Of a stretch of DNA of 64,000 bases, positions 40,813-56,857 are shown piece after piece. A program made the position numbers and the translations under genes. The notes beneath the pieces are model-generated. The model had not been told where the DNA came from, ran no database searches, and saw only the letters and a program-made list of their open reading frames with translations. The stretch is from Crocinitomicaceae bacterium. Its GTDB lineage: Bacteria > Bacteroidota > Bacteroidia > Flavobacteriales_D > Crocinitomicaceae. Positions within the stretch are counted from its first letter, which is position 1. Each line of letters opens with the position of its first letter. The stretch lies in assembly GCA_030730025.1 (NCBI GenBank), contig JANQWC010000026.1, forward strand, positions 11,861 to 75,860, read 5' to 3'.

Positions 40813-41820
40813 ATGAAGAAAATTTTTACACTTCTAACGGCTCTTGTTTTAGGAGCTTCTGCCTTCGCACAATTTCCTGCGGTAGGTATCATCGGTTCTG
40901 CGGTTCCACCGTTTGACTGGTCTGTTGATGTCGACATGATCACTTTAGATGGTGAGATGTACGGCGCTATCGTTACTTGCGTTGCAGGTGAGGCTAAATT
41001 CCGTCAAGACGACGATTGGGCGATCAACTGGGGTGCTGCTGACTTCCCTGCAGGTGTTGGTGTACAAGATGGTGCAAACATTCCAGTTACTGATGGTACG
41101 TACATGGTCATCTTCAACCGCACAACAGGTATGTATAGCTTCCAAACAAGCTTTGACGTTACATACAAAGTAGACGTAACAAACTACCTTGCTGCAAACA
41201 CATTGGATGCAAACGGTTTGCGCGTTGGTGGTAACTTTACAGACAACGGTGCTACTGTAGCTGCTGGTGCTGTTGCAAACTGGTCTCCTGCAGATGCAAA
41301 CTCTGCAATGACTGACGAAGGCAACAACATCTGGGCAATTACTGTATCTTATCCAGTTGCTTCTATGGGTGCTACTCAATTCTACAAGTTCGTAAACGGT
41401 GACTGGGGTGCTAACGAAGGTACTGACGCTGCTAACACAATCGCAGTTGACTCATGTGGTGTTGACGATGGTGGTGGTAACATCAACCGTACTTACACTT
41501 TGATGCCTGGTACTGTATGTTACGTTTGGGATGCTTGTACAGCATGTGGTGTTTCAGTTGCTGAAAACGCAATTGCTAACCTTACTGTTGCTCCAAACCC
41601 TGCAACTGATGTAGTTAACTTCACTTTCGAAGCAAACAACGCTGCTGTTGCAACTGTAACAATCTTTGATCTTGCTGGTAAAGCTGTAGCTACTCAAACT
41701 GTTGCTACTTCTGCTACTACAACAGTAGAAATGAACACAACTGCATTGCAGGCTGGTTCTTACATCTACAATGTTGTTGCTGGTGACAAAGTTGCTACTG
41801 GTAAATTAATCAAGCAATAA
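40813..41820 (+). CDS. SusE/SusF-like starch-binding protein with T9SS sorting domain
   Basis: A 335-residue exported protein, signal peptide ending ASAFAQ. Residues about 22-115 resemble a SusE/SusF-type glycan-binding unit (GDDWAINWGAADFPAG-like: here DDWAINWGAADFPAGVG, after AGEAKFRQ). Residues about 117-240 form a second beta-sandwich with FYKFVNGDWGANEGTD. A T9SS type A domain (VAPNPATDVVNFTFEANN, ending GKLIKQ) closes the protein. Classical SusE/F are lipoproteins; this one is routed through T9SS. Codon use is extremely biased to GCT, GTT, ACT and AAC like tuf, so expression is probably very high. It has its own promoter element and a strong terminator. Binding specificity is inferred from the neighbours. 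Confidence 0.75.
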   Translation: MKKIFTLLTALVLGASAFAQFPAVGIIGSAVPPFDWSVDVDMITLDGEMYGAIVTCVAGEAKFRQDDDWAINWGAADFPAGVGVQDGANIPVTDGTYMVIFNRTTGMYSFQTSFDVTYKVDVTNYLAANTLDANGLRVGGNFTDNGATVAAGAVANWSPADANSAMTDEGNNIWAITVSYPVASMGATQFYKFVNGDWGANEGTDAANTIAVDSCGVDDGGGNINRTYTLMPGTVCYVWDACTACGVSVAENAIANLTVAPNPATDVVNFTFEANNAAVATVTIFDLAGKAVATQTVATSATTTVEMNTTALQAGSYIYNVVAGDKVATGKLIKQ

Positions 41821-41841: not shown

Positions 41842-41873
41842 AAAGCCTGGGTGAGTTTCACCCGGGCTTTTTT
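41842..41873 (+). terminator. Terminator after SusE/F-like gene
   Basis: A 12-bp stem AAGCCTGGGTGA/TCACCCGGGCTT with a three-base loop and six T. It should uncouple the very highly expressed first gene from the amylase gene downstream. Confidence 0.85.
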
Positions 41874-41908: not shown

Positions 41909-44692
41909 ATGAAAAAGCAGTTTCTTTTATCTATTGTTTTGATGATGCTCGACGGGTTTGTGAATGCACAAATCTTAGAAGTAAATCCTGTATTTCCAAC
42001 TGTAAATGATGTGGTAACCATCACGTATGATGCAACACAAGGAAATGCAGCGTTAGTAGGCCAAAATCAAATCTATGCCCACGCTGGGCTCATTACCTCT
42101 GCAAGTACATCGCCAACCAATTGGCAATTTGTACAAGGAAACTGGGGCACCGTAGACCCAGAAGTAACCATGACCAACATCGGTAACAACAAACACACCA
42201 TCACGATTGATATCGACCAATATTATGGTTTCCCGGTTGGCACAAACGTGTTGAAATTTGCTTTTGTTTTTAGAAATGCAGCCGGAACAATTGTAGGTCG
42301 CTCAGCAGATGGCAGTGATATCTATTACGACATCTACCCTGTGAATGCGGGTTTGTTGGCGCAGTTTTTTCATCCGAGCGCGGGCGCCATCCTAGATGTA
42401 AACGAGCAATTACAAGTAGAAGCCGCAGCCAATCAAAATGCTACCCTAACGCTCAAACAAGACGGCAACGTGCTGCAAACCTTAGCCAATGCCACCCAAC
42501 TCAATTACAACCTCACGGCTACCTCAGCTGGCACATACTTACTTGAATTCATTGCCGACAACGGCACAACACAAGTCATCGACTCGACTTATTTTACAGT
42601 GAACCCAGTGGTGGTTCCACAAAACCCCACTTATGCCAATTTGCAAAATGGCATCAACTACATCAACGACACCACTGTTGTGTTGCAATTATTTGCCCCT
42701 CAAAAAGAACACATTTACGTCATCGGCGACTTCAACAACTGGACGCCCACGGCCAACTATCATATGAACTTAGCTACCAATAACCAAACTTGGTGGTTAG
42801 AAATTACGGGGCTCAATCCCGGTCAAAAATATGGCTATCAATATTTCATAGATGGTAACATGCGTTTAGCAGACCCAATGAGCCCACTTATTTTGGATCC
42901 AAACAACGACAACAGCATCAATGCCCAAACGTATCCAAACCCACATCCTTATCCAACGGGCCAAACAACAGGTTTTGTAACGGTTTTGCAAACAGCGGCC
43001 ACGCCTTACGTTTGGTCTAGTACCGGCTTTACAGCACCCCAAAAGAAAGATTTAGTGATCTACGAATTGTTGGTAAGAGATTTCGTAGCGAAGCGCAATT
43101 ACCAAACACTTATCGATACGCTTGATTATTTGGACAAATTAGGAATCAATGCCATTGAACTCATGCCTCCTGGCGAGTTTGAAAACAACGAAAGTTGGGG
43201 TTACAACCCTTCTTTTCACATGGCGCTCGATAAATATTACGGTACGCCAGAAAAATTCAAGGAGTTTGTCGATTCTTGCCATGGCCGCGGCATTGCCGTG
43301 ATTGTCGATATGGTCCTCAACCACGCATTTGGGCAAAATCCCATGGTTAACATGTACTGGGATGCCGCAAATGCGCGCCCTGCAGCAAACAGTCCTTGGT
43401 TCAATGCCATTTGCCCGCACGAGCCCTACTGTTGGGGCTATGATTTTGACCATACCCGCCTGGCTACGCAAAACTATATTGACCAAGTGAACCGCTATTG
43501 GGTCGAGACCTACAATGTGGATGGCTTCCGCTTTGATTACACAAAAGGTTTTGTCAATAATGGCAATGGGTACAGCATGGAGCGCATCAATTTGCTCAAG
43601 CGAATGGCAGACGAAATCTGGAGCTACAAACCAGATGCGTATATCATTTTAGAACACTGGTGCGACAACGCCGAGGAAGAACAATTGGCAGACCACGGCA
43701 TGATGCTTTGGGGCAATGTTACCCACGGTTATCAGCAAGCCTTAATGGGCTTTACCAACTCCAGTAACATCAGTTCTGGTATTCACACCAACCGCGGTTG
43801 GTCGCTGCCGCATTTGGTTTCTTATGCCGAAAGCCACGACGAAGAGCGCACGATGTTTGAGGCACTTACTTACGGAAATAACACCAATGCCACGCACAAC
43901 GCCCGCAACTTGTATACCGCTCTTGGCCGTGCCCAAGGTTTGGCGGTCATTTTATTGACGCAACCAGGCCCCAAAATGCTTTGGCAGTTCCAAGAATTGG
44001 GCTACGACATCTCGATAGACAACCCTTGCCGGGTTTGCAATAAACCCATTTTATGGAACTATTACACTCAAGCGCGCCGCCGTCAACTCTACGATGTATA
44101 TGCCGCCACACTTTCCTTGCGCAACAACTACGAAACCTTCAGGTCATTGAACTTCCAGTACAACCTGACTGGCGCTGCCAAAAGAATGACCATGAGCCAT
44201 TCGAGCATGAATGGGGTGTCTATGGCGAACTTTGCGGTCAGCACGCAAAGTGTCATACCTGCTTTTCAGCATGCAGGGTGGTGGTATGAGTATTTCACCG
44301 GAGACAGCATCAATGTAACCAACGCACTGGCGCCGATCAGCCTAGTTGCTGGCGAATACCGCATCTATACAGACGTCAAGCTCGCACTTCCAGAAATTAC
44401 AGAAGCCCCAGCCTCCATAGAGGAAGTGTTGAATTCAACTTTTGAGTTGAAAGTGTTTCCTAATCCTTCGTCGCAACTCGCAACCATCAGTTTTCAGTCA
44501 AACGCCATTGCGCCTTATACCATTTTACTCTTAAACGAAGCAGGGCAGGTTGCGCTCCAAAGAAAGGGCAGCACCTCCATTGGTAAAAACGAAATCCAGT
44601 TGAGCGTGAACGAAATTGCTGCAGGTAACTATCATTTCTTGGTGAAAGTTGGCACGGCCATGGCCAATGAAGGCTTTGTCAAAGTTGATTAA
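41909..44692 (+). CDS. Secreted GH13 alpha-amylase with T9SS sorting domain
   Basis: A 927-residue extracellular alpha-glucan hydrolase. A signal peptide ends FVNAQ. N-terminal beta-sandwich modules include a CBM48/E-set region (residues about 240-330, with VIGDFNNWTP). The GH13 barrel follows: region I DMVLNH, region II GFRFDYTKG with nucleophile D543, region III IILEHW with acid/base E582, and region IV ESHDEER with D644. A T9SS domain ends the protein (VFPNPSSQLATISF ... GFVKVD). Classical sus loci use a lipoprotein amylase (SusG); here T9SS does that job. The ATG at 41909 follows an in-frame GTG. The CotH gene starts ten bases after its stop. Confidence 0.93.
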   Translation: MKKQFLLSIVLMMLDGFVNAQILEVNPVFPTVNDVVTITYDATQGNAALVGQNQIYAHAGLITSASTSPTNWQFVQGNWGTVDPEVTMTNIGNNKHTITIDIDQYYGFPVGTNVLKFAFVFRNAAGTIVGRSADGSDIYYDIYPVNAGLLAQFFHPSAGAILDVNEQLQVEAAANQNATLTLKQDGNVLQTLANATQLNYNLTATSAGTYLLEFIADNGTTQVIDSTYFTVNPVVVPQNPTYANLQNGINYINDTTVVLQLFAPQKEHIYVIGDFNNWTPTANYHMNLATNNQTWWLEITGLNPGQKYGYQYFIDGNMRLADPMSPLILDPNNDNSINAQTYPNPHPYPTGQTTGFVTVLQTAATPYVWSSTGFTAPQKKDLVIYELLVRDFVAKRNYQTLIDTLDYLDKLGINAIELMPPGEFENNESWGYNPSFHMALDKYYGTPEKFKEFVDSCHGRGIAVIVDMVLNHAFGQNPMVNMYWDAANARPAANSPWFNAICPHEPYCWGYDFDHTRLATQNYIDQVNRYWVETYNVDGFRFDYTKGFVNNGNGYSMERINLLKRMADEIWSYKPDAYIILEHWCDNAEEEQLADHGMMLWGNVTHGYQQALMGFTNSSNISSGIHTNRGWSLPHLVSYAESHDEERTMFEALTYGNNTNATHNARNLYTALGRAQGLAVILLTQPGPKMLWQFQELGYDISIDNPCRVCNKPILWNYYTQARRRQLYDVYAATLSLRNNYETFRSLNFQYNLTGAAKRMTMSHSSMNGVSMANFAVSTQSVIPAFQHAGWWYEYFTGDSINVTNALAPISLVAGEYRIYTDVKLALPEITEAPASIEEVLNSTFELKVFPNPSSQLATISFQSNAIAPYTILLLNEAGQVALQRKGSTSIGKNEIQLSVNEIAAGNYHFLVKVGTAMANEGFVKVD

Positions 44693-44702
44693 GCACTTTT
44701 TG

Positions 44703-46130
44703 ATGCGAAACGTCCTTTGTGCGCTTGTTGTCTTTTGGTTTGGAATTTCAGTTTTTCACGCTCAAATTCCACAGCCTGCTTACAACGCAGCTTTCCTTCA
44801 AAATGAAGTGGCTAGTGTTTATGTAGTGATAGAACCCGATTCTTTGAATTTATTATTGGGCGATAGTTTATACAGTGGTCATGAATTTATGGCGACCGTC
44901 ACCTATCAAAGTTCGGTTCTGAACCTCACCCTTGACAGCATTGGTTTTAGAGCCAGAGGAAATACATCTTTGGCTTCGCAAAAAAAGTCTTTCAAAGTAG
45001 ATTTCAACCGCTTTGTTGCTGGTCAAAAGTTTCAAGGTCTAGAAGAATTGAACTTGAATGGCGAACACAACGATGTGTCCATCATGCGTTCTTATCTTGC
45101 GCAGCAGCTTTTGCGTTCCGGGAATTTACCTTCTGCGCGCACAAGTTATGTTCAACTTTATATCAATAATGCATACAAGGGTTTGTATATCAATGTCGAA
45201 CACCTCGACGACGAATTCCTCGATTTGCGTTTTCCAAGCCAAGCCAACGGCAACCTTTGGAAATGTGCTTACGGCGCAGACCTAACTTGGTTGGGCACTA
45301 ATCCGGTCAACTACCAGAATACCTATGAGCTCAAAACCAATAAGGACAGCAATGATTATACAGCCCTTGTTCATTTTGTAGATGTACTCAACAATACGCC
45401 GTCGGGTAGTTTTGCTTGCGCGATACAAGAAGTGCTTGATGTGGATTTGTTCTTGCGCAATATTGCCATGGAAATCTTGATGGGGCAGTGGGATGGCTAC
45501 GCCTACAACAAAAACAATTACTATTTGTATCAGCGCGAAAGCGACGGCAAAATGGTTTATCTCTCTTATGATTTAGACAATACCTTTGGCATCGACTGGT
45601 TCAATATCAATTGGGCACTGCGCAATATTTATACGTGGTCTCCGGGTAACCAGAGTAGGCCTTTGTACAGCAAGCTTTTGGCGGTGCCGTATTTCAGAGA
45701 CCGCTTCACCTTTCACCTCAATGACATCCTTTCAAACGTTTGGAATGTCAGCACCCTGCAAACCGAACTCGAAGCGAAACAACAACTCATTTCTCCAGCA
45801 GCTTTACTTGACGACTACAAAGGATTGGATTACGGATTTAGCGATCAAGATTTTTCCATCGCGCTTCAACAAGCATGGGGTGCGCATGTCAAGTCTGGTA
45901 TTGTACCCTATTTGCAAAACCGCAAAACGAGCGCGCTTTCGCAGTTAAGTGCATATCAAGCCCTGCCCAATCCTTGTCAGTCAGGTCTCCAAGAAATTGC
46001 GGTTCCGTCCGGAAAATTACTTTACGTGACCGATATTTTGGGCAGAGAAATTGACCCAGCGGCCAAAAATTGCATTAAAATATTGAACTTTGAAAACGGA
46101 ACTCAACAGCGTATTTATGAAATGGATTAA
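44703..46130 (+). CDS. CotH kinase family protein, exported
   Basis: A 475-residue protein of the CotH family, atypical protein kinases first known from spore coats and common in T9SS-bearing bacteria. A signal peptide ends FHAQ. Family blocks: IGFRARGNTSLASQKKSFKV, NGEHNDVSIMRSYLAQQLL, INNAYKGLYINVEHLDDEFL, and the active-site-like region YLSYDLDNTFGIDW preceded by DGYAYNKNNYYLY. The C-terminus (ALPNPCQSG ... LYVTDILGREI) looks like a shortened T9SS sorting domain. It lies between two GH13 genes and overlaps the next one, so it belongs to the starch operon. Target and role are unknown. Confidence 0.87.
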   Translation: MRNVLCALVVFWFGISVFHAQIPQPAYNAAFLQNEVASVYVVIEPDSLNLLLGDSLYSGHEFMATVTYQSSVLNLTLDSIGFRARGNTSLASQKKSFKVDFNRFVAGQKFQGLEELNLNGEHNDVSIMRSYLAQQLLRSGNLPSARTSYVQLYINNAYKGLYINVEHLDDEFLDLRFPSQANGNLWKCAYGADLTWLGTNPVNYQNTYELKTNKDSNDYTALVHFVDVLNNTPSGSFACAIQEVLDVDLFLRNIAMEILMGQWDGYAYNKNNYYLYQRESDGKMVYLSYDLDNTFGIDWFNINWALRNIYTWSPGNQSRPLYSKLLAVPYFRDRFTFHLNDILSNVWNVSTLQTELEAKQQLISPAALLDDYKGLDYGFSDQDFSIALQQAWGAHVKSGIVPYLQNRKTSALSQLSAYQALPNPCQSGLQEIAVPSGKLLYVTDILGREIDPAAKNCIKILNFENGTQQRIYEMD

Positions 46131-48012
46131 CCTTGCTTTCAGCGTACTTATTTTTTCTTTTGTCCAAGCCCAAGTTTTACAACATGTAGAACCAGCTAAT
46201 TGGTGGGTTGGCATGGAGCACCACCAGGTACAAGTGCTTTTACACGGCCCTCAAATTGCCAAGTATAAAGTGGAAGTCGGGGGCTTGCAGATTTTAGAAG
46301 AAATCCGCACAGAAAACCCCAATTATATTTTTGTCACGCTCGAAACCAAAGACAAAGTTGCGGGGGCTTATCAAATCCGCTTGTTGGACAAAAAGAAAAT
46401 CCTAGCTACCCATGAGTTCAAACTTGAAGAGCGCATTGAGAATAGCAAATACCGCCAGAGTTTCAATAGCTCGGATGTCATGTATTTATTGATGCCAGAT
46501 CGTTTTGCAAATGCCAATGAGGCTCAAGATACGCACCCTGATACAAAGGAAGCTGCCAACCGTTCAAATCCTGGTGGGCGGCACGGTGGCGACATCATGG
46601 GACTCATTCAACACTTGAATTACATCAAAGAGTTGGGCGCCACTACCATCTGGACAACACCTGTACTCGAGGACAACGAACCAACCTATTCTTATCATGG
46701 CTATGCGCAATCCGATTTATATAAAATTGACCCGCGTTATGGCACCAATTCTTGGTACAAAGAAATGGTCTTGGAGGCGCATCGTCAGGGCTTGAAAGTC
46801 ATTAAAGACGAAGTAACCAACCATTGGTCTAGCAAGCACTGGATGATCCAAGATCTGCCTACCGCGACCTGGATCCATCAATTTGATGAATTCACGCGTT
46901 CCAATTACCGCTTGTCTACGCAATTTGACCCACATGCTGCTCAAAGTGATCATGCTGGTTCTGCAAATGGTTGGTTTGACGTTACCATGCCTGACATGAA
47001 CCAACAAAATCCGCTGTTGCTCACTTACCTTATTCAAAATACCATTTGGTGGCTCGAATACGCACAGTTGGATGGCTTGCGTGTCGATACTTATCCTTAC
47101 AACGACAAAGAGGCCATTGCACGCTGGACAAAAGCAATATTGAATGAATATCCCAACCTGAATATCGTAGGAGAAGTCTGGATGCACGATCAAGCACAAA
47201 TGTCATATTGGCAAAAAGACAGCCCTATCGGCGCACTTCAAAATTACAACAGTTATTTGCCTTCGGTGATGGATTTCACCTTACATGATGCCATGTTGCA
47301 AGCTTGGAAAGAGCAAGACCAAGGTTGGGACAAAGGCATGATTCGTTTTTATGAGAATTTTACGCAAGATTATTTATATGCCAATCCACAAAATTTATTG
47401 GTTTTCATGGAAAACCACGACACCCAGCGCTTTAATGAGCTCTACCCCGACATCGCCGACTACAAGTTAGCACTCACCTTGCTGGCCACCACCCGCGGCA
47501 TTCCGCAGCTTTATTATGGTACAGAAATTGGGATGAAAGGCAATAAGGATTTAGGTGATGCAGCTATCCGCCAAGACTTTCCTGGTGGCTGGGCTGCAGA
47601 TCGGCATACGGCATTTTGCAGCAACGACGACGCAAAATGTCATGCATACCAAACAGGAAGAACGCCAGAGGAGGAAGCTTATTTCCAGTTTTCGAAAGCA
47701 CTACTCAATTGGAGAAAAGGTCAAAAGGTGATCCACGATGGCAAACTCCTGCAGTTTGTACCTCAAAATAACGTGTATGTTTATTTCCGCTACCTGGAGC
47801 CCGTTAAAGAATTGGGTCAAGCAGCGGAGGTGATCATGGTGGTCATCAATAATTCAACTAAAGAGCAAACGCTTTCATGGTCTCGCTTTGCAGAGGGTTT
47901 CATGGGCTATGACAAAGGAAAAGACGTGCTCAATAACCAAACCTTTGATTTCGAACAAGCAACGGGTCAGATCCCCGCGAAAACTGCTTATATCATCAAA
48001 CTGACGCATTAA
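46117..48012 (+). CDS. Periplasmic GH13 neopullulanase/cyclomaltodextrinase (SusA-like)
   Basis: A 631-residue enzyme cutting imported malto-oligosaccharides or cyclodextrins. A signal peptide ends FVQAQ. The N-terminal domain starts HVEPANWWVGMEHHQVQVL, typical of the cyclomaltodextrinase N-terminal domain. Catalytic regions: DEVTNH, LRVDTYPY with nucleophile D324, GEVWMH with acid/base E353, and ENHDTQR with D435. There is no T9SS tail, so a periplasmic location like SusA is expected. It begins inside the 3' end of the CotH gene (14-base overlap) and GH31 follows after two bases. Confidence 0.94.
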   Translation: MKWINLAFSVLIFSFVQAQVLQHVEPANWWVGMEHHQVQVLLHGPQIAKYKVEVGGLQILEEIRTENPNYIFVTLETKDKVAGAYQIRLLDKKKILATHEFKLEERIENSKYRQSFNSSDVMYLLMPDRFANANEAQDTHPDTKEAANRSNPGGRHGGDIMGLIQHLNYIKELGATTIWTTPVLEDNEPTYSYHGYAQSDLYKIDPRYGTNSWYKEMVLEAHRQGLKVIKDEVTNHWSSKHWMIQDLPTATWIHQFDEFTRSNYRLSTQFDPHAAQSDHAGSANGWFDVTMPDMNQQNPLLLTYLIQNTIWWLEYAQLDGLRVDTYPYNDKEAIARWTKAILNEYPNLNIVGEVWMHDQAQMSYWQKDSPIGALQNYNSYLPSVMDFTLHDAMLQAWKEQDQGWDKGMIRFYENFTQDYLYANPQNLLVFMENHDTQRFNELYPDIADYKLALTLLATTRGIPQLYYGTEIGMKGNKDLGDAAIRQDFPGGWAADRHTAFCSNDDAKCHAYQTGRTPEEEAYFQFSKALLNWRKGQKVIHDGKLLQFVPQNNVYVYFRYLEPVKELGQAAEVIMVVINNSTKEQTLSWSRFAEGFMGYDKGKDVLNNQTFDFEQATGQIPAKTAYIIKLTH

Positions 48013-48014
48013 TC

Positions 48015-50447
48015 ATGAAGGCATACTTATTTCTCTTTTCGGGTTTTTTCCTGCTTTTTTCGCTGCACGCGCAAGATGCCACAAGACAATTCCAATCCAT
48101 ACAGGCCACAGAAGAAGGCTGTGCAATCAGTGTAAGCGACGGCACCTACCAACTGGCAAGTTACTCTGAGCACATTATTGAGGTGAAGTTCATTCCGAGC
48201 AACGGAATGGGTACGTACAAAACTTCTCACGCGATTCAAATTCAACCGCAAAAGAACGTTTTTAAACTGCAACAAATCGATGCAACACATTATGTTGTAC
48301 AACGCGCACAACTAGAGGTCCGCATTCAGACTGCTCCGTTCGAATTAGCTTATTATCATGCGGGGAAATTACTCTGCAAAGAAGGGAAGGGGTATCAACC
48401 GGGTCAATTGCATAGCATTGATTTGGCCATTCAGTCCGATGAAAAACTGATGGGTGCAGGTGCGCGTGCGTTGGGTATGAACCGTCGCGGCTATCGTTTG
48501 CAACTGTATAACCGTGCACATTACGGTTATGAAACGCATTCAGAACTGATGAATTTTACGATGCCCATTTTTATGTCAGACCGCCTCTATATGGTGCATT
48601 TTGACAATCCAGAAACAGGTTACCTAGATTTAGATGCTGCAAAAAACAACCACGTGCGCTTTGAAGCCATTGGCGGCCGCATGTGCTATCAAATTATTGC
48701 AGGTCAAGATTGGAAAGAAATCACCACCGAATGGACCTACCTAAGCGGCAGACAGCCGATGCCTCCGCGTTGGGCCTTTGGTAATTTCGCAAGCCGTTTT
48801 GGCTACCATTCAGAGGCCGAAGCCCGCGAGGTAGTCCAGACTTTTCGCACTGAGCAAATCCCGCTAGACGCCATTATTTTTGACCTCTATTGGTTTGGTA
48901 AAACCATCCAAGGCACACTCGGTAATTTATCTTTCTACCGCGATTCCTTTCCAGACCCGAAACAAATGATGTCCGATTTCAAGCAAAATGGCGTCAAAAC
49001 AGTTCTGATTACCGAGCCGTTTATTTTAAATACTTCCAAAAATTGGCAAATAACCGACTCTTTGGGTCTTTTAGGAACCAATGCTGCAGGTAAGTCACTG
49101 ACGTATGATTTTTATTTTGGACATACCGGCTTGCTCGATATCTATAAACCAGAGACCAAAAAATGGTTCTGGCAGGTTTATAAAGACCTACATGACATGG
49201 GTGCAAGTGGCATCTGGGGCGATCTCGGAGAGCCTGAAGTACACCCGGCCGACATGAAACACAAAGATGCTTGGGCCAATCAGGTGCACAATATTTACGG
49301 CCATGATTGGGCTAGACTCATTAGTGAAGGCTATCAAAAAGACTTCGCAAGAGAGCGTCCATTTATCTTGATGCGCGCTGGTTATTCTGGTTCTCAGCGC
49401 TACGGCATGATTCCTTGGTCTGGCGATGTGAACCGCACTTGGGGTGGGCTCAAGCCACAAATGGAAATCTCTTTGCAAATGGGGCTTCAAGGGATGGCTT
49501 ACATGCATTCTGATTTAGGTGGTTTTGCAGGTGCCAACGACGAGCCAGAGTTATATGTGCGTTGGTTGCAATACGGCGTTTTTCAGCCTATTTTCAGGCC
49601 GCATGCGCAAGAAGATGTGCCAAGCGAAGCGATATACAAAGATGCCCAAACCAAAGCGCTCGCTAAAAAAGCAATTGAAAGCCGCTACCGCATGCTGCCG
49701 TATAATTACACATTAGCTTATCAAAATGCCACTAAAGGTTGGCCGCTCATGAGACCAATTTACATGGAGTTTCCGAAGGCTGATTGGTCCTTTGAGCAAT
49801 CCGAAACATATATGTGGGGTGCTGCATTTTTGGTACATGCCATCACCGACCCGATCAGTGGTTTCAAAGAAAACACCGTGCGCACCAAATTGCCTGCTGG
49901 CACACCATGGTTTGATTTCTCGAGTGGTCAATTAATTGAAAAAACAGTTAATAGCGGTACAGATTCACAATTTATAGAAGTTGAAACACCACTATCATTG
50001 GATCAAATTCCGGTATTTGTTCGCGCGGGCTCTTTTGTGCCAATGGCTACCGTTTGTCAGGCTACAGATGCCTACAAAGACACAACCGTAACCGTTCATT
50101 ATTACCATCACCCTACGGTCACTCAAGCTACCGGAGAATGGTACGAAGACGATGGCCTGAGCGCAGGTGCTTGGCTGATGTTTCGCTACAAACGCTTGCA
50201 ATTCACGGCCAAAGCTGATGCAAAGACTTTAGAGATCAATGCTGTTTCGACATTTGGTCAAAGACTTTCCGCCAAACAATTCACGTATCAGGTGCAAATT
50301 CATTGTGCTACAGCGCCTAAAAAAGTGAAACTCAATGGCAAATCTTGCGCTACGCAATACGATGCAAGTCAGCAAGTACTGATTTTGACTGCACCTATAA
50401 AGCACAGCGAAACGCAATTTTCACATACAATTTTGGTCACTTGGTGA
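48015..50447 (+). CDS. GH31 alpha-glucosidase (SusB-like role)
   Basis: An 810-residue exo-acting alpha-glucosidase releasing glucose from malto-oligosaccharides. A signal peptide ends LHAQ. An N-terminal beta-sandwich precedes the barrel. The nucleophile is D403 in GIWGDLGEPE and the acid/base is D471 in PWSGDVNRTW. MHSDLGGFAG follows, then C-terminal beta domains. It fills the role of SusB, although SusB itself is GH97. No sorting domain, so periplasmic. Fifth gene of the locus; an 88-base gap with a new promoter separates it from susC. Confidence 0.94.
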   Translation: MKAYLFLFSGFFLLFSLHAQDATRQFQSIQATEEGCAISVSDGTYQLASYSEHIIEVKFIPSNGMGTYKTSHAIQIQPQKNVFKLQQIDATHYVVQRAQLEVRIQTAPFELAYYHAGKLLCKEGKGYQPGQLHSIDLAIQSDEKLMGAGARALGMNRRGYRLQLYNRAHYGYETHSELMNFTMPIFMSDRLYMVHFDNPETGYLDLDAAKNNHVRFEAIGGRMCYQIIAGQDWKEITTEWTYLSGRQPMPPRWAFGNFASRFGYHSEAEAREVVQTFRTEQIPLDAIIFDLYWFGKTIQGTLGNLSFYRDSFPDPKQMMSDFKQNGVKTVLITEPFILNTSKNWQITDSLGLLGTNAAGKSLTYDFYFGHTGLLDIYKPETKKWFWQVYKDLHDMGASGIWGDLGEPEVHPADMKHKDAWANQVHNIYGHDWARLISEGYQKDFARERPFILMRAGYSGSQRYGMIPWSGDVNRTWGGLKPQMEISLQMGLQGMAYMHSDLGGFAGANDEPELYVRWLQYGVFQPIFRPHAQEDVPSEAIYKDAQTKALAKKAIESRYRMLPYNYTLAYQNATKGWPLMRPIYMEFPKADWSFEQSETYMWGAAFLVHAITDPISGFKENTVRTKLPAGTPWFDFSSGQLIEKTVNSGTDSQFIEVETPLSLDQIPVFVRAGSFVPMATVCQATDAYKDTTVTVHYYHHPTVTQATGEWYEDDGLSAGAWLMFRYKRLQFTAKADAKTLEINAVSTFGQRLSAKQFTYQVQIHCATAPKKVKLNGKSCATQYDASQQVLILTAPIKHSETQFSHTILVTW

Positions 50448-50535: not shown

Positions 50536-53500
50536 ATGCAAAAACAAACTACTACAAGTTTTTTTGCCTTCTTGATGTTTTTTGGAATGTCGGTAGTGGC
50601 TATAGCCCAGACCGGAATTCGAGGAACCATCACAGACGCAGCTGGTGTTCCACTTTATAATGCTTCGGTATTGGTGGAAGGTCAGGGCAAGGGCGCTGTA
50701 TCCAATGAAAAAGGCTTTTACGAAATCACAGGCCTCAAAGCCGGAACTTACAATGTCATTTATAAGTTCATGGGTTTCAATCCACAATCTGATCAAGTAA
50801 CTGTTGTTGCCAACCAAATGGCGACCAACGACTTCCAATTTGCGTCTAGAACACAAGATGTAGGAGATGTCGTCGTGATTGGTTATGGTACCCAGCGCAC
50901 CAAAGACCTCACCGGTTCTGCCACGATCATCAACGAGAAAAACTTTGTGCAAGGTTCACTTGCTTCTCCAGAGCAACTCGTTATGGGTAAGGTTGCTGGT
51001 TTGAAAGTCACCTCCAACGATGGCGCCCCTGGTTCGGGAAGCACCCTTCGCTTGCGCGGTGGAACTTCCATCAATGCGTCCAACGACCCACTTATTGTTG
51101 TAGACGGTGTGCCGCTAGACAACGGCGGTATTGCTGGAGCAGCCAACCCATTATCATTGATCAACCCAAATGACATCGCTTCATTTGTCGTCTTGAAAGA
51201 TGCGTCAGCCACGGCTATTTATGGTTCGAGAGCAGCCAACGGCGTCATCCTCATCACCACTAAGCGCGGTTCTGCTTCAAACGATGTGAAAGTTGTATTG
51301 GATTCTAAAACTTCTGTTTCTACCATCGCAAAATATTTCGATGTACTCAGCGCCGACTCCCTTCGCAATCTTGTCAATGCCAGTGGCACAACTGCACAAA
51401 AAGCATTACTTGGCGATTCCAGTACAGATTGGCAAAAACAAGTATTCCGCTCTGCAGTCGTAACCGACAACAACGTTTCTATCACCGGTGGTATTAAAAA
51501 CTTCCCTTACCGTTTATCAATAGGTAACCGCATGGACAACGGTATCCTCAAAAGAGATCAATTTGCCCGTACAACTGTAAGCTTGAACATGAACCCAAGT
51601 TTATTAGACAAAACATTGCAAATCGAAGCCAACATGAAATACGTTCAAACAGCTTCTTTCTTTGCCAACCGCGGTGCACTTGGCGCAGCATTTTTTGATC
51701 CAACCCAACCGATTTATTCTGGCAACGAAGCCTACGGCGGTTATTTCGAATGGATCGACAACAACAAGCCAAATGTGCTTTCAGGACGCAATCCACTTGG
51801 CTTGATTGAACAGTCTACGGACCAAAGTAAAGTCAATCGTGCAATTGCCAATGCCAAACTTTCTTATCATCTTCCTTCTTTACCTGCTTTGAAAGCGACT
51901 GTAAACGTAGGTGGTGACTTCTCAGAAGGGACAGGCTACACCATTACACCAGCTTCTTCTGCATCTGGTTATTACACACAAGGGCGTTATTCAAATTACC
52001 GCACGACCAAAACCAATAAACTTTTTGAATCTTACTTGAGCTACAACTCTGGTGCTAAGTGGGAAAAACAAACATTGGAGATGGTTGCAGGTTACTCCTA
52101 CCAAGATTGGGATACCTATAGCCCTAACAACCCTACTTACAACGAAGCGCAAGATAGCGTCATTGCACCAGAAGCTGCATTTCCATTCTACACGCGCAAC
52201 GTACTCATGTCTTACTACGGACGTGCCATCTACAACTATGCAGGCAAATATGTAGTGAACGTTTCTGTTCGCCGAGATGGTTCTTCGCGCTTTAGCCCAG
52301 AAACACGTTGGGGTGTATTCCCTGCCGCATCTGCTGCTTGGCTTATTTCTGAAGAAGATTTCTTGAAAAAGAGCAAAGTAATCAACATGTTGAAACTTCG
52401 CGCAGGCTGGGGTATCACAGGTCAGCAAGACGGTATTGGTGACTACGCATATATTGGTAACTACTTCCAAGGTGCAACAACTGCTCAGTATGCTTTTGGT
52501 GGTCAGTACTACCAAGTATTGCGTCCGGCAGGTTTTGATGCAGGCCTTAAGTGGGAAACCACAACTTCTTATAACCTTGGTCTAGATTTTGGCTTCAAAA
52601 ACGACCGTTTCTCTGGAAGCCTTGATGTGTATCAAAAAGATACCCGCGATCTCCTTGCTACTGTCCCTGTTCCGGCCGGAACCAACTTTACCAACGAAAT
52701 TCTTACGAATGTTGGCGCCATGCAAAACCGCGGTGTTGAGGTTTCTATCAACACAGGCTTGATCGCTAAAAAAGACATGCGCCTAGATTGGTCCATCAAC
52801 GGTACTTATAACGTGAACACCGTTATCAAACTATCTCAAGTTGTTGACACAACATCTCCAGGTGTGTTGGTTGGTGGTATTGGTGGCGGTATTGGAAATA
52901 CCATCCAAGCGCATCAAGTAGGTTACCCAACTTACACTTTCTTTGTTCTTGAGCAACAATACGACTCACAAGGCCGTGTCATTGAAGTTGGCTCTTTGTC
53001 GGAAATCGACATGAACGGCGACGGTCAAGTGACAGCAGCAGATAAGTGGAAAGACACCAATGCGTTTGTCGATCAAAATGGCGACGGCATCATCAACGTC
53101 AAAGACCGCTATTACGCTGGTCAGGCCGCTCCAAAAATGTTCTTTGGTACAGCCTTGAACTTCCAGTACAAAAAATGGTATGCAGGTTTCTCTGCTCGTG
53201 CAGAAATGGGTGCTACCATCTATAACAACATCCACTCCAACAGCGCCGTTTTCCAAACCATCGACGGAACCAAAAAATACCTCAATAACATCAGTTCTTT
53301 GTACTACCAAGACGAAGTACAGCGCGTAACTGCAAGCCAGTTAATGAGTGATCACTACCTCGAGAAAGCAAATTTCTTGCGCGTGGACTTCATCAATGTA
53401 GGTTACAACTTTGGCAAGCTCGGCTTTGCAAAAGAAAAAGTGGGCCTCAATGCAAGTTTCGTTGTGCAAAATGCATTTGTTGTTACCAAATATTCTGGTC

Positions 53501-53586
53501 AAGATCCAGAGATTGGTGGTGGTATCGACAACAATTTCTACCCACGTCCACGCGTGTATTCAGTTAACTTAACATTTGATTTCTAA
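50536..53586 (+). CDS. SusC/RagA-type TonB-dependent transporter
   Basis: A 1016-residue outer-membrane importer for oligosaccharides powered by TonB. A signal peptide ends AIAQT. A carboxypeptidase-regulatory-like domain (residues about 25-105: IRGTITDAAGVPLYNASVLV) precedes the TonB-box-like DVVVIGYGTQ, the plug domain (DGVPLDNGG, ASATAIYGSRAANGVI) and a 22-strand barrel ending in NLTFDF with a terminal phenylalanine. Two EF-hand-like loops (DMNGDGQVTAAD and DQNGDGIINVKD) lie in a long extracellular loop. SusD follows after ten bases. Starch specificity is inferred from the neighbours. Confidence 0.95.
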   Translation: MQKQTTTSFFAFLMFFGMSVVAIAQTGIRGTITDAAGVPLYNASVLVEGQGKGAVSNEKGFYEITGLKAGTYNVIYKFMGFNPQSDQVTVVANQMATNDFQFASRTQDVGDVVVIGYGTQRTKDLTGSATIINEKNFVQGSLASPEQLVMGKVAGLKVTSNDGAPGSGSTLRLRGGTSINASNDPLIVVDGVPLDNGGIAGAANPLSLINPNDIASFVVLKDASATAIYGSRAANGVILITTKRGSASNDVKVVLDSKTSVSTIAKYFDVLSADSLRNLVNASGTTAQKALLGDSSTDWQKQVFRSAVVTDNNVSITGGIKNFPYRLSIGNRMDNGILKRDQFARTTVSLNMNPSLLDKTLQIEANMKYVQTASFFANRGALGAAFFDPTQPIYSGNEAYGGYFEWIDNNKPNVLSGRNPLGLIEQSTDQSKVNRAIANAKLSYHLPSLPALKATVNVGGDFSEGTGYTITPASSASGYYTQGRYSNYRTTKTNKLFESYLSYNSGAKWEKQTLEMVAGYSYQDWDTYSPNNPTYNEAQDSVIAPEAAFPFYTRNVLMSYYGRAIYNYAGKYVVNVSVRRDGSSRFSPETRWGVFPAASAAWLISEEDFLKKSKVINMLKLRAGWGITGQQDGIGDYAYIGNYFQGATTAQYAFGGQYYQVLRPAGFDAGLKWETTTSYNLGLDFGFKNDRFSGSLDVYQKDTRDLLATVPVPAGTNFTNEILTNVGAMQNRGVEVSINTGLIAKKDMRLDWSINGTYNVNTVIKLSQVVDTTSPGVLVGGIGGGIGNTIQAHQVGYPTYTFFVLEQQYDSQGRVIEVGSLSEIDMNGDGQVTAADKWKDTNAFVDQNGDGIINVKDRYYAGQAAPKMFFGTALNFQYKKWYAGFSARAEMGATIYNNIHSNSAVFQTIDGTKKYLNNISSLYYQDEVQRVTASQLMSDHYLEKANFLRVDFINVGYNFGKLGFAKEKVGLNASFVVQNAFVVTKYSGQDPEIGGGIDNNFYPRPRVYSVNLTFDF

Positions 53587-53596
53587 TTTTTGAACC

Positions 53597-55165
53597 ATGA
53601 AAAGATTAGTAGCTTATACCTTTATTGCCAGCGCTCTTTTATTAGGAGCCTGTGGCAAAAACTTGAATCAATCGCCTAAATACGGTCTCAATGCTGAGGC
53701 GGTCTACAGCGATTCCGATAACTACATCAAAGTACTAGCAAAATTGTACGCTGGCATGTCCATGACAGGTAACCAAGGCCCAGCCGGGCAAGCGGATATC
53801 GCTGGTATCGATGAGGGTTTTTCTGCGTATGTTCGCGTATTGTGGAACATGCAAGAGCTGCCTACCGACGAAGCAATTTGCGGTTGGAATGACCCAGGTA
53901 TTCCAGATCTCAACAAAACAGAATGGAACGCCGACAACGTGTGGGTAAAAGGAATGTATTACCGCATTTTTTACCAAATTACGCTTTGCAACGAATTCAT
54001 TTGGCAGTCGCGCGATGAAAAACTCAACGAACGTGGCTTTACACCTGCTCAGGTTTCAAGCATCGTCACCATGCGCAACGAAGCACGCTTTTTACGTGCC
54101 TTGGCTTACTACCACGCCATGGATTTATTTGGGAATGTACCATTTGTAACGGAAGAAGACCGCGTTGGTGCGTTCAATCCAGAGCAAATCATGCGCGCCG
54201 ATTTATTTGCCTACATCGAGTCTGAAATCAAAGCAATTGAAGATGAACTCACGCCTGCTGCAACTGTAGCTTATGGCCGTGCATCTCGCAGTGCTGCACA
54301 CGCACTCATGGCCAAAATGTATCTCAACGCCAAAGTTTACACTGGCACTGAGCGCAACAACGATTGTGCAACATATTGTGAGAAAATCATCAACACCAAT
54401 AGCTTTCAGCTAGACGACGTCTATCAAGATGTCTTTTTAGCAGACAACAACACTTCACCTGAAATCATCTTCCCAATTGTTTACGACGGCTTGTATTCGC
54501 AAACTTGGGGTGGAACAACCTTCATGATTTGCTCTGCTTTAGGAGGTTCTATGGTGGCCGCAGATTACGGTGTGAACGGCAAGTGGGCAGGTAACCGTGC
54601 TACCCGACCATTCATCGAGAAGTTCACTGACACTACCGAAGATTCACGTTGGATGTTCTACACTGCCGGACAACAAATCGATATCACCTCGATGAGTACG
54701 TTTACGCAAGGATACGGTAATCCAAAATACAAGAACAAAACCAAAGACGGTCTTAATGGTTCGAACAATGCAACCTCTGCGCACGTCGATGTAGATTTCC
54801 CGATGTTCCGTTTGGGCGATGTTTTCCTCATGTACGCTGAAGCGAAGTTCCGCTCCGGAGATGAAGCAACTGCACTCGTTTACATGAACAAAATTCGCGA
54901 ACGCGCCTACGGAGATGCCAACCACAACTATTCTGCTTTAGTACTCAATGATTTCATTGACGAACGCGCACGTGAATTGAACTGGGAGTGTACACGCCGT
55001 ACCGACCTCATTCGCTTTGATCTCTTCACGAGCAGTACTTATGTGTGGCCATTCAAAGGAGGCGACGCAGCTGGTCTTGGGGTAGATGATAAATACATTC
55101 TCTATCCAATTCCAACTTCAGATATCGTACTCAACCCGAATTTGCAACAGAATCCTGGTTTCTAA
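53597..55165 (+). CDS. SusD/RagB-type surface glycan-binding lipoprotein
   Basis: A 522-residue lid lipoprotein for the SusC transporter. The lipobox is LLLGAC. The TPR-rich SusD core is shown by RNEARFLRALAYYHAMDLFGNVPF and ASRSAAHALMAKMYL, and the C-terminal SusD domain by FRLGDVFLMYAEA and NWECTRRTDLIRF. It captures oligosaccharides and closes over SusC. Last gene of the locus on this strand; a terminator follows. A regulator (SusR-like or HTCS) and lipoprotein SusE/F genes are absent downstream. Confidence 0.95.
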   Translation: MKRLVAYTFIASALLLGACGKNLNQSPKYGLNAEAVYSDSDNYIKVLAKLYAGMSMTGNQGPAGQADIAGIDEGFSAYVRVLWNMQELPTDEAICGWNDPGIPDLNKTEWNADNVWVKGMYYRIFYQITLCNEFIWQSRDEKLNERGFTPAQVSSIVTMRNEARFLRALAYYHAMDLFGNVPFVTEEDRVGAFNPEQIMRADLFAYIESEIKAIEDELTPAATVAYGRASRSAAHALMAKMYLNAKVYTGTERNNDCATYCEKIINTNSFQLDDVYQDVFLADNNTSPEIIFPIVYDGLYSQTWGGTTFMICSALGGSMVAADYGVNGKWAGNRATRPFIEKFTDTTEDSRWMFYTAGQQIDITSMSTFTQGYGNPKYKNKTKDGLNGSNNATSAHVDVDFPMFRLGDVFLMYAEAKFRSGDEATALVYMNKIRERAYGDANHNYSALVLNDFIDERARELNWECTRRTDLIRFDLFTSSTYVWPFKGGDAAGLGVDDKYILYPIPTSDIVLNPNLQQNPGF

Positions 55166-55264: not shown

Positions 55265-56857
55265 CTACTCATTTTTAATCACTTTTTCATAGATGCCTTT
55301 GTTTGGCTCAGCAAGAAAGTATATGCCTGATTTGAGTTCTGTCAGATTGATTTGAATGGTATTTGATGCGTAAGGAATTGTCAAAATATTTTTTCCAAAT
55401 AAGTCAATTAAATATAATTCTCCGGGGTTTGTTAAACCGGAAATGGTCAGCACAGCTGCAGTTGGATTAGGAAACAATTTTAAAGACTTATTATTTAACT
55501 CGGAAATGCCCGCGGTACACGTACCAAACATATTGGCGTCCATCCAAGCAGTTCTGTTTTGAATCCAGGTTTTAAGGTAATTGATTTCCTCTTGATAAGT
55601 TTGTCCGATGAAATTGTTAGGCCACACGTAATTACCTAAAATTGGCCATTTTTGATAATGTCGCATGGCAGGAGTTTCTAGAAAATCTGCTGTAGTATCA
55701 ATGTAAGAAACAAGCGCTGAATCACTCAAAATAGTTTGTCTGAGCGTTGTCCAACGGCATTTTACGTCGTTGGCATATAGTGGATCTTCAAGTAAGCGTT
55801 TCCAATAAAATGGGTTTTGCCATTCCCCTCCACAATAGTCATTGAAATTGATTTCCCATCCAGATGTGAGTGATCCTTGGCAGTAATCGGCATTACCCCA
55901 AGCTATGTTGTAATCCCAAAGTGGACCAGCTACTAATTTTCCACCTTCGCTCATTCTTTGCTTGTGAAAGAACGCTGAGATACGGTAACCATCTACATTC
56001 TTTGAAAGCTCTGTTAGAAGAAAGTAGTCAATAAAAGAAGAAACGTCGATGTACGCCTTGTAACCATTAATAGGACTTGTAAAACTGCTGATTTTCAGTG
56101 CAACTTCCCAATCGGTGATGTAATCTTGAATGTAGGCCTTTTGTAAGGGGTGGAGCTCATTTAGCTTTGGGTCGTGAACTTGAAATTTGATTTGGGTATT
56201 TCCTGGAGCTTGACTTAAGTAAGGTGATGTCCAAGCGATTTCTCCTCCACCTGACGTTTTGTCAATCTTGACAATATAACCTCCTGTTAATTCATTTCCT
56301 AAGGTATCTTCGAAATTTAATTTGTCAATATGAACCCGACCTGGATTTTCTTTAATGCGTTCCATCATGACATAAACCCCGATATATGTGCCGTTAAGAA
56401 CTACTTCACAAAACTGTGTGCGAGGTGCCCAGCGACCAAGTTCATTACCGAGTTTGTAGGTTAAAACATTTCGCATCAAGGATTTGTCTGTGTACGGCGC
56501 ATGTAATATAAAGTCATTGTCGGAAGGCCAGTCAAAGAGTGATACATTGAGGTTGCTTGAATCCGGGTTTCTGGTTTCTAAACCGTATGATTGTTGCGGA
56601 AACATACTTGAAGAGGAGCCTCGTGTTTCAATGCCAATGTGTCCATTATATAGATTAAATGAATCACTGATGTGATTGACTTGCCCGGGCCCATTGTAGA
56701 TGATGCCCATGAGGGCATCAATTTTGGGTTCGTCTTGAATGGCTAAACCATCGGTATCAATGACAACAATAGGTAGCGTAGAGCTCGTGAAGTTAACTTG
56801 CGCAAATGTGTTGAAAGAACTACTCAAAAAAGCTAAAAAGACAAGCCAAATTTTCAT
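55265..56857 (-). CDS. CotH kinase family protein with T9SS sorting domain
   Basis: A 530-residue exported CotH-like protein. A signal peptide ends TFAQ. Family blocks: IGIETRGSSSSMFPQQSYGL, HAPYTDKSLMRNVLTYKL, NGTYIGVYVMMERIKEN, and the active-site-like GPLWDYNIAWGNADY. A T9SS type A domain ends it (LFPNPTAAVLTISG ... YEKVIKNE). It differs strongly from the CotH in the starch locus (classic PLWDYN form here, YDLDNTFG there). It overlaps lnt by four bases. Base composition looks more AT-rich than its neighbours, which may point to transfer. Substrate is unknown. Confidence 0.9.
   Translation of the reverse strand: MKIWLVFLAFLSSSFNTFAQVNFTSSTLPIVVIDTDGLAIQDEPKIDALMGIIYNGPGQVNHISDSFNLYNGHIGIETRGSSSSMFPQQSYGLETRNPDSSNLNVSLFDWPSDNDFILHAPYTDKSLMRNVLTYKLGNELGRWAPRTQFCEVVLNGTYIGVYVMMERIKENPGRVHIDKLNFEDTLGNELTGGYIVKIDKTSGGGEIAWTSPYLSQAPGNTQIKFQVHDPKLNELHPLQKAYIQDYITDWEVALKISSFTSPINGYKAYIDVSSFIDYFLLTELSKNVDGYRISAFFHKQRMSEGGKLVAGPLWDYNIAWGNADYCQGSLTSGWEINFNDYCGGEWQNPFYWKRLLEDPLYANDVKCRWTTLRQTILSDSALVSYIDTTADFLETPAMRHYQKWPILGNYVWPNNFIGQTYQEEINYLKTWIQNRTAWMDANMFGTCTAGISELNNKSLKLFPNPTAAVLTISGLTNPGELYLIDLFGKNILTIPYASNTIQINLTELKSGIYFLAEPNKGIYEKVIKNE

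Follow-up and report, generated by a model that had tools for sequence, protein, structure and literature searches.

Kinases of the CotH family are found repeatedly in systems that degrade glycans outside the cell, cellulosomes among them, with no agreed role. What would such a kinase do in a starch operon? The question is raised by a 64,000-nucleotide stretch of DNA (the window), in which a gene here called CotH1 lies at 44703..46130 on the forward strand, starts with ATG and encodes 475 residues by ORF call and Pfam. Its assignment to the CotH family in a preliminary description of the window was confirmed by a match to PF08757 with an E-value of 1.4e-61, scoring 209 bits where the family cut-off is 23.8. 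The protein consists of a signal peptide (about residues 1–20), a kinase domain (about 35–419) and a C-terminal tail (about 424–475). CotH was the only Pfam domain found, and the search gave neither a carbohydrate-binding domain nor a dockerin. An AlphaFold (AF2) model with a pLDDT of 88.5 was used in a fold search, which returned 5jd9 and 5jda, the latter being the B. cereus CotH kinase with Mg2+/AMP, with Z scores of 38.3 and 38.1, respectively, over 348–349 residues at an rmsd of 2.6 Å. The next structures, with Z scores of 13 and below, were lipid kinases, HipA and Fam20C.

CotH1 is part of a series of genes on one strand, GH13a-CotH1-GH13b-GH31-SusC-SusD, identified in the window by ORF and profile calls. 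According to the profile search, GH13a (41912..44692, +) encodes a secreted α-amylase-family enzyme with CBM48, an N-terminal DUF4961 and a T9SS tail, GH13b (46120..48012, +) a cyclomaltodextrinase/neopullulanase-type GH13 enzyme with a signal peptide and without a T9SS tail, and GH31 (48015..50447, +) an α-glucosidase-type enzyme with a signal peptide, followed by a SusC-like TonB-dependent receptor (50536..53586, +) and a SusD-like lipoprotein (53597..55165, +). The tight linkage of CotH1 between two GH13 genes was as first described: the GH13a stop at 44692 is separated from CotH1 by 10 bp, and the ATG of GH13b at 46120 overlaps CotH1 by 11 bp. Since the gaps from GH13a to GH31 are 10, −11 and 2 bp, co-transcription of these four genes is very likely on the basis of gene spacing. 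SusC and SusD are adjacent and accompanied by glycoside hydrolases, as in a Sus-type polysaccharide utilization locus, and SusC, SusD, GH13 and an α-glucosidase are components shared with Sus-type starch loci. To our knowledge, the classical Sus operon of Bacteroides has no CotH component.

Upstream of GH13a is a conserved gene for a small, T9SS-secreted X25-like protein (40813..41820, +; profile search) with a weak match to pullulanase X25, and a terminator-like hairpin of 13 pairs followed by a T-rich stretch (41842..41870, +; from a consensus scan only) lies between the two genes. Rfam gave no structured RNA in the locus at gathering scores, and the promoter scan of the locus showed no excess over shuffled sequences. 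The DUF4961 match of GH13a (2e-09) has a weak counterpart in the protein at the SusE position in L046, and this domain may be a starch-binding module. The GH31 protein of the window is 97% identical to that of L006 and about 56% identical to those of L007, L008 and L010–L017, where the flanking genes are mostly 70–96% identical. Because its identity falls so far below that of the flanking genes, GH31 has probably been replaced in the window lineage.

The preliminary description had doubted the activity of CotH1 because of the motif SYDLDNTFG. However, this motif is the canonical DxD form, which in the alignment is equivalent to WDYDATWG of the solved Bacillus CotH, and there is thus no reason to doubt activity on this account. 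The departure from the canonical form is in the second CotH protein of the window, CotH2 (PLWDYN/WDYN), and concerns the second acidic position. The B. cereus CotH structure carries the motif FDGFVHNYALY...IPWDYDATWG, whose two Asp are spaced by 23, as are D228 and D251 in B. subtilis CotH, where the D228Q and D251A changes render the kinase inactive (PMC7821199). The CotH1 residues that align with this pair are D264 (in WDG) and D290 (in YDLD), located in the catalytic segment WDGYAYNKNNYYLY...SYDLDNTFG (residues 263–297; 45489..45593, +; D264, N272, D290 and D292 by alignment). The invariant pair K94/K95, in the segment RARGNTSLASQKK (residues 83–95; 44949..44987, +), provides the candidate ATP-binding lysine; the segment aligns with RGAHIREFEKK of 5jd9, and R85, G86, N87, T88, S89, K94, K95, S96 and F97 are invariant among the relatives of CotH1. 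The catalytic-region residues are invariant in all of the 42–54 relatives aligned, with K94, K95, E166, D264, N271, N272, D290 and D292 invariant in 54 of them, down to about 38% identity. The catalytic residues, whose absence was to count against the proposal, are present in both sequence and fold, and CotH1 is probably catalytically competent.

In close pairs, the dN/dS of CotH1 is 0.05–0.16, indicative of purifying selection; CotH1 is therefore an intact, constrained gene, and it is changing somewhat faster than its operon partners. These observations bear on whether CotH1 could be a non-catalytic kinase fold, serving as a structural or glycan-binding partner that assembles or positions the starch enzymes or binds starch. 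Such a function would not need ATP, for which there is no obvious supply outside the cytoplasm, and would suit the LTD and T9SS domains of the long relatives, which are typical of surface proteins; cellulosomal CotH proteins have likewise been proposed as assembly factors or to act in plant cell wall binding (PMC12484212, PMC8665504). However, the catalytic Lys, Glu, Asp and Asn residues are strictly invariant even though the amino acid sequence of CotH1 diverges faster than those of its operon partners, which favors catalysis over a scaffold, and Pfam finds no carbohydrate-binding domain in the protein. We consider a non-catalytic partner unlikely, though worth keeping in view.

The predicted signal peptide, MRNVLCALVVFWFGISVFHA/Q (that is, ...SVFHA/Q), suggests that CotH1 is exported, and similar sequences begin GH13b (...FVQA/Q) and GH31 (...SLHA/Q); all three were read by eye. 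CotH1 was rejected as a T9SS type A cargo, as it lacked a Pfam match to Por_Secre_tail and was not among the T9SS tails listed across the genome, which include those of GH13a, the X25-like protein and CotH2. The long relatives do carry a T9SS tail, and because this tail has been lost, the simplest inference is that CotH1 is periplasmic, beside GH13b and GH31. The C-terminal tail of CotH1 (NPC...DILGREI...ENGTQQRIYEMD; 45972..46130, +) is possibly a shortened relic of the T9SS sorting domain. Tails of the short form comprise about 55 residues, of which P424, C425, D444, G447 and G466 are invariant in the operon group alignment. Compared with T9SS tails, the CotH1 tail gave a weak profile match (E 0.0018, but a probability of 15%) and no Pfam match. 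A role as a general sorting tag was rejected, since there is no second good copy in the genome.

A search of genome contigs returned 57 loci. In nearly all of L006–L045, CotH1 lies between GH13a and GH13b, at 46–85% identity. Within the genus of the window, CotH1 was present in 32 of 32 GH13a-positive genomes and adjoined GH13a in 31 of them, the remaining one being split between contigs, while no strong match was seen in any of the 13 GH13a-negative genomes (Fisher p 1.4e-11, without correction for relatedness). A sample of 299 genomes of the order included 133 with a strong CotH1 match; GH13a was also present in 118 of these, and in 62 of the 133 the two genes lay within 2 kb on the same strand. 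The GH13/CotH neighborhood in the window is far beyond chance and, rather than being peculiar to this genome, which would have counted against the proposal, recurs in dozens of others.

The arrangement has also changed without separating CotH1 from the starch genes. In other genera of the family (L116–L119), GH13a is located elsewhere and CotH1 is the first gene of an intact CotH1-GH13b-GH31-SusC-SusD series; L125 has the same order up to the contig end within GH31. In other families of the order, a long form of the protein, with CotH, LTD and T9SS domains, directly precedes GH13 and SusC, with SusD next where annotated. These results argue against CotH1 being a passenger, that is, a general cell-envelope CotH that shares the operon and has a function unrelated to starch use: the co-occurrence with GH13a is perfect in 45 genomes of the genus, several rearrangements have left CotH1 adjacent to GH13 or SusCD, and the starch neighborhood is common to two architectures of the CotH protein. 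On the other side, starch loci of the same type occur without an adjacent CotH (L123, L124, L127–L130), four short forms that make up a subclade (L112, L120–L122) are not in starch loci, and across the phylum the long relatives each give a single hit and have differing neighbors. Overall, a passenger appears quite improbable.

Recurrence beside GH13 or SusCD in other Bacteroidota, which the preliminary description had put forward as something to be looked for, was thus found in several families of one order (Flavobacteriales by record titles), but it did not extend to the 20 loci fetched outside that order, 19 of which belong to another class of the same phylum (L150 gave no labelled CotH ORF). 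In these loci, neither GH13 nor SusCD genes adjoined the long CotH and no neighbors were conserved, so that a general link of CotH to starch genes in Bacteroidota was not found in this sample. The closest approaches were in L137, where a GH13b-like gene is about 7 kb distant, and in L132, where CotH adjoins a weak match to a TonB receptor. The absence of starch linkage in the 20 loci indicates that the association is a lineage-specific recruitment and that the ancestral role of CotH was not specific to starch. In the tree, the 49 short forms group together (support 100/99), and this group is nested among long forms that are linked to GH13; the GH13 linkage therefore seems to be older than the loss of the LTD and the T9SS tail; the root was placed at the midpoint, several branches are long, and deep placements are unsure. 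The long proteins, known from Bacteroidota and Ignavibacteriota, share with CotH1 an orthologous kinase domain, roughly 38–50% identical and with the same invariant residues, but differ from it in their LTD and T9SS sorting tail, their length of about 740–910 residues and, outside the order, their lack of linkage to starch genes.

The explanation that we tentatively favor, at somewhat less than an even chance, is that CotH1 is an exported, active CotH kinase that acts on co-exported proteins of the locus. Within this order, CotH1 would have been drawn into the α-glucan (starch/maltodextrin) utilization locus as an accessory, and it would be exported by its signal peptide to act outside the cytoplasm, probably in the periplasm. 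There, it would transfer phosphate (or a nucleotide) to one or more co-exported locus proteins, and the transfer might adjust how these assemble, how stable they are or how active they are, in the manner of Bacillus CotH and its coat proteins. This reading is supported by the long-term co-inheritance and adjacency of CotH1 with GH13, GH31 and SusCD, and protein substrates are favored because of the Bacillus precedent. Several observations count against it. Outside the cytoplasm, ATP is not normally present. A Ser-rich repeat substrate was looked for among the proteins of the locus and not found, the Ser content never exceeding 8 in 30 residues. CotH is not adjacent in some starch loci of this type, and in the 20 loci sampled outside the order the long relative is unlinked to starch. 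More broadly, we consider it rather doubtful that, in a Gram-negative bacterium, an ATP-type kinase acts on starch enzymes or on the glucan outside the cytoplasm, so that phosphorylation would control a polysaccharide utilization locus or be a step in its assembly.

Comparison with Bacillus CotH (5jd9/5jda, PF08757) shows the same family, the same fold (Z 38), and a common catalytic Asp pair and Lys and Asn regions. CotH1 differs in having an export signal and a catalytic loop that is 3 residues longer, and in being encoded in a starch locus, where no partner with Ser-rich repeats was seen, whereas Bacillus CotH acts on Ser-rich coat proteins during sporulation (PMC7821199). A nearby CotB/CotG-type Ser-rich repeat substrate, which was not found, is a Bacillus trait and is not needed for family membership.

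The substrate might also be the sugar itself. Fam20 kinases, to which the CotH1 fold is distantly related (Z about 11), include the xylose kinase Fam20B, and the tight linkage of CotH1 to α-glucan enzymes would fit a glycan kinase that phosphorylates maltodextrins or starch instead of proteins, as Fam20B does a sugar. However, the profile search revealed no gene for a phospho-glucan-specific hydrolase or phosphatase in the locus, the ancestral long form is unlinked to starch genes, and the substrates described for Bacillus CotH are proteins (PMC7821199). We regard a glycan kinase as very unlikely.

According to the preliminary description, a kinase acting on exported starch-locus proteins or on the glycan would be a new role. 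A kinase beside glycan-degrading machinery is not wholly without precedent: dockerin-bearing CotH proteins have been described in the cellulosomes of bacteria and anaerobic fungi, including CseP/Cthe_0044 of C. thermocellum, where their role is unclear (PMC12484212, PMC6083626, PMC8665504). Like CotH1, these are exported CotH proteins tied to polysaccharide-degrading machinery, but they belong to cellulolytic systems and are scaffold-bound through their dockerins, whereas CotH1 lacks a dockerin and is encoded in a Gram-negative starch locus of the SusCD type. A full-text search, which covered few subscription papers, gave no relevant literature joining CotH with SusD, polysaccharide utilization loci, the type IX secretion system or amylase. 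The combined evidence suggests that a kinase may modify starch-degrading machinery that lies beyond the cytoplasm. If CotH1 does modify the enzymes, polysaccharide utilization loci would have a new layer, that of phosphorylation. Across many genomes, CotH holds a fixed place in a starch operon that is compact and ordered, its catalytic residues are intact, and loci with and without CotH, as well as long and short forms, provide natural comparisons; the substrate and donor of an exported CotH kinase have therefore become a directly testable question.

Other CotH genes were also seen at starch loci. CotH2 (55265..56857, −; ORF call and Pfam), which has a T9SS tail, is convergent with SusD; it also follows SusD in L012 and L015, and was not found in the approximately 1 kb after SusD in L007, L010, L011, L014 and L017. 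In another genus, a different CotH-LTD-T9SS gene directly adjoins CotH1 in divergent orientation (L118, 12337–14598; L119, 10663–12930), and a second CotH at a starch locus has thus arisen with another subtype as well. Three loci titled Sphingomonadales, Chryseobacterium gleum and Chitinophaga pinensis (L013, L017 and L027, respectively) group by sequence inside the Crocinitomicaceae/Flavobacteriales set and are probably mislabelled MAGs or stray contigs.

The long forms were observed in several further contexts. In the annotated f9 loci (L046, L097), the gene directly upstream of the long CotH encodes a Nudix/NrtR-type winged-helix sugar regulator, and in L100 it encodes PrmA; an identification of this upstream gene as a polyphosphate polymerase (VTC) or DUF4956 was wrong. 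The long CotH follows an ORF of 232–251 residues (the Nudix/NrtR regulator where annotated, in L046) in L093–L095, L098, L099, L106 and L110. This ORF faces a divergent cluster, which in L094 encodes PFK, GAPDH, a β-PGM-like HAD protein and GH65, and by its predicted gene content the whole region is a compact maltose-to-glycolysis unit. In a sample of the phylum, 36 of 198 genomes (the short form of the window included in the count) had a strong match, exactly one per positive genome, and in L131–L149 the long CotH-LTD-T9SS-like protein appears as a widespread orthologous family without conserved neighbors. The long CotH adjoins an M64 (IgA-type) peptidase gene in L056 and L057 (Ignavibacteriota) and in L138 (from the phylum of the window), and in L053 and L054 it lies directly downstream of a GH92 gene, another glycan-linked context.
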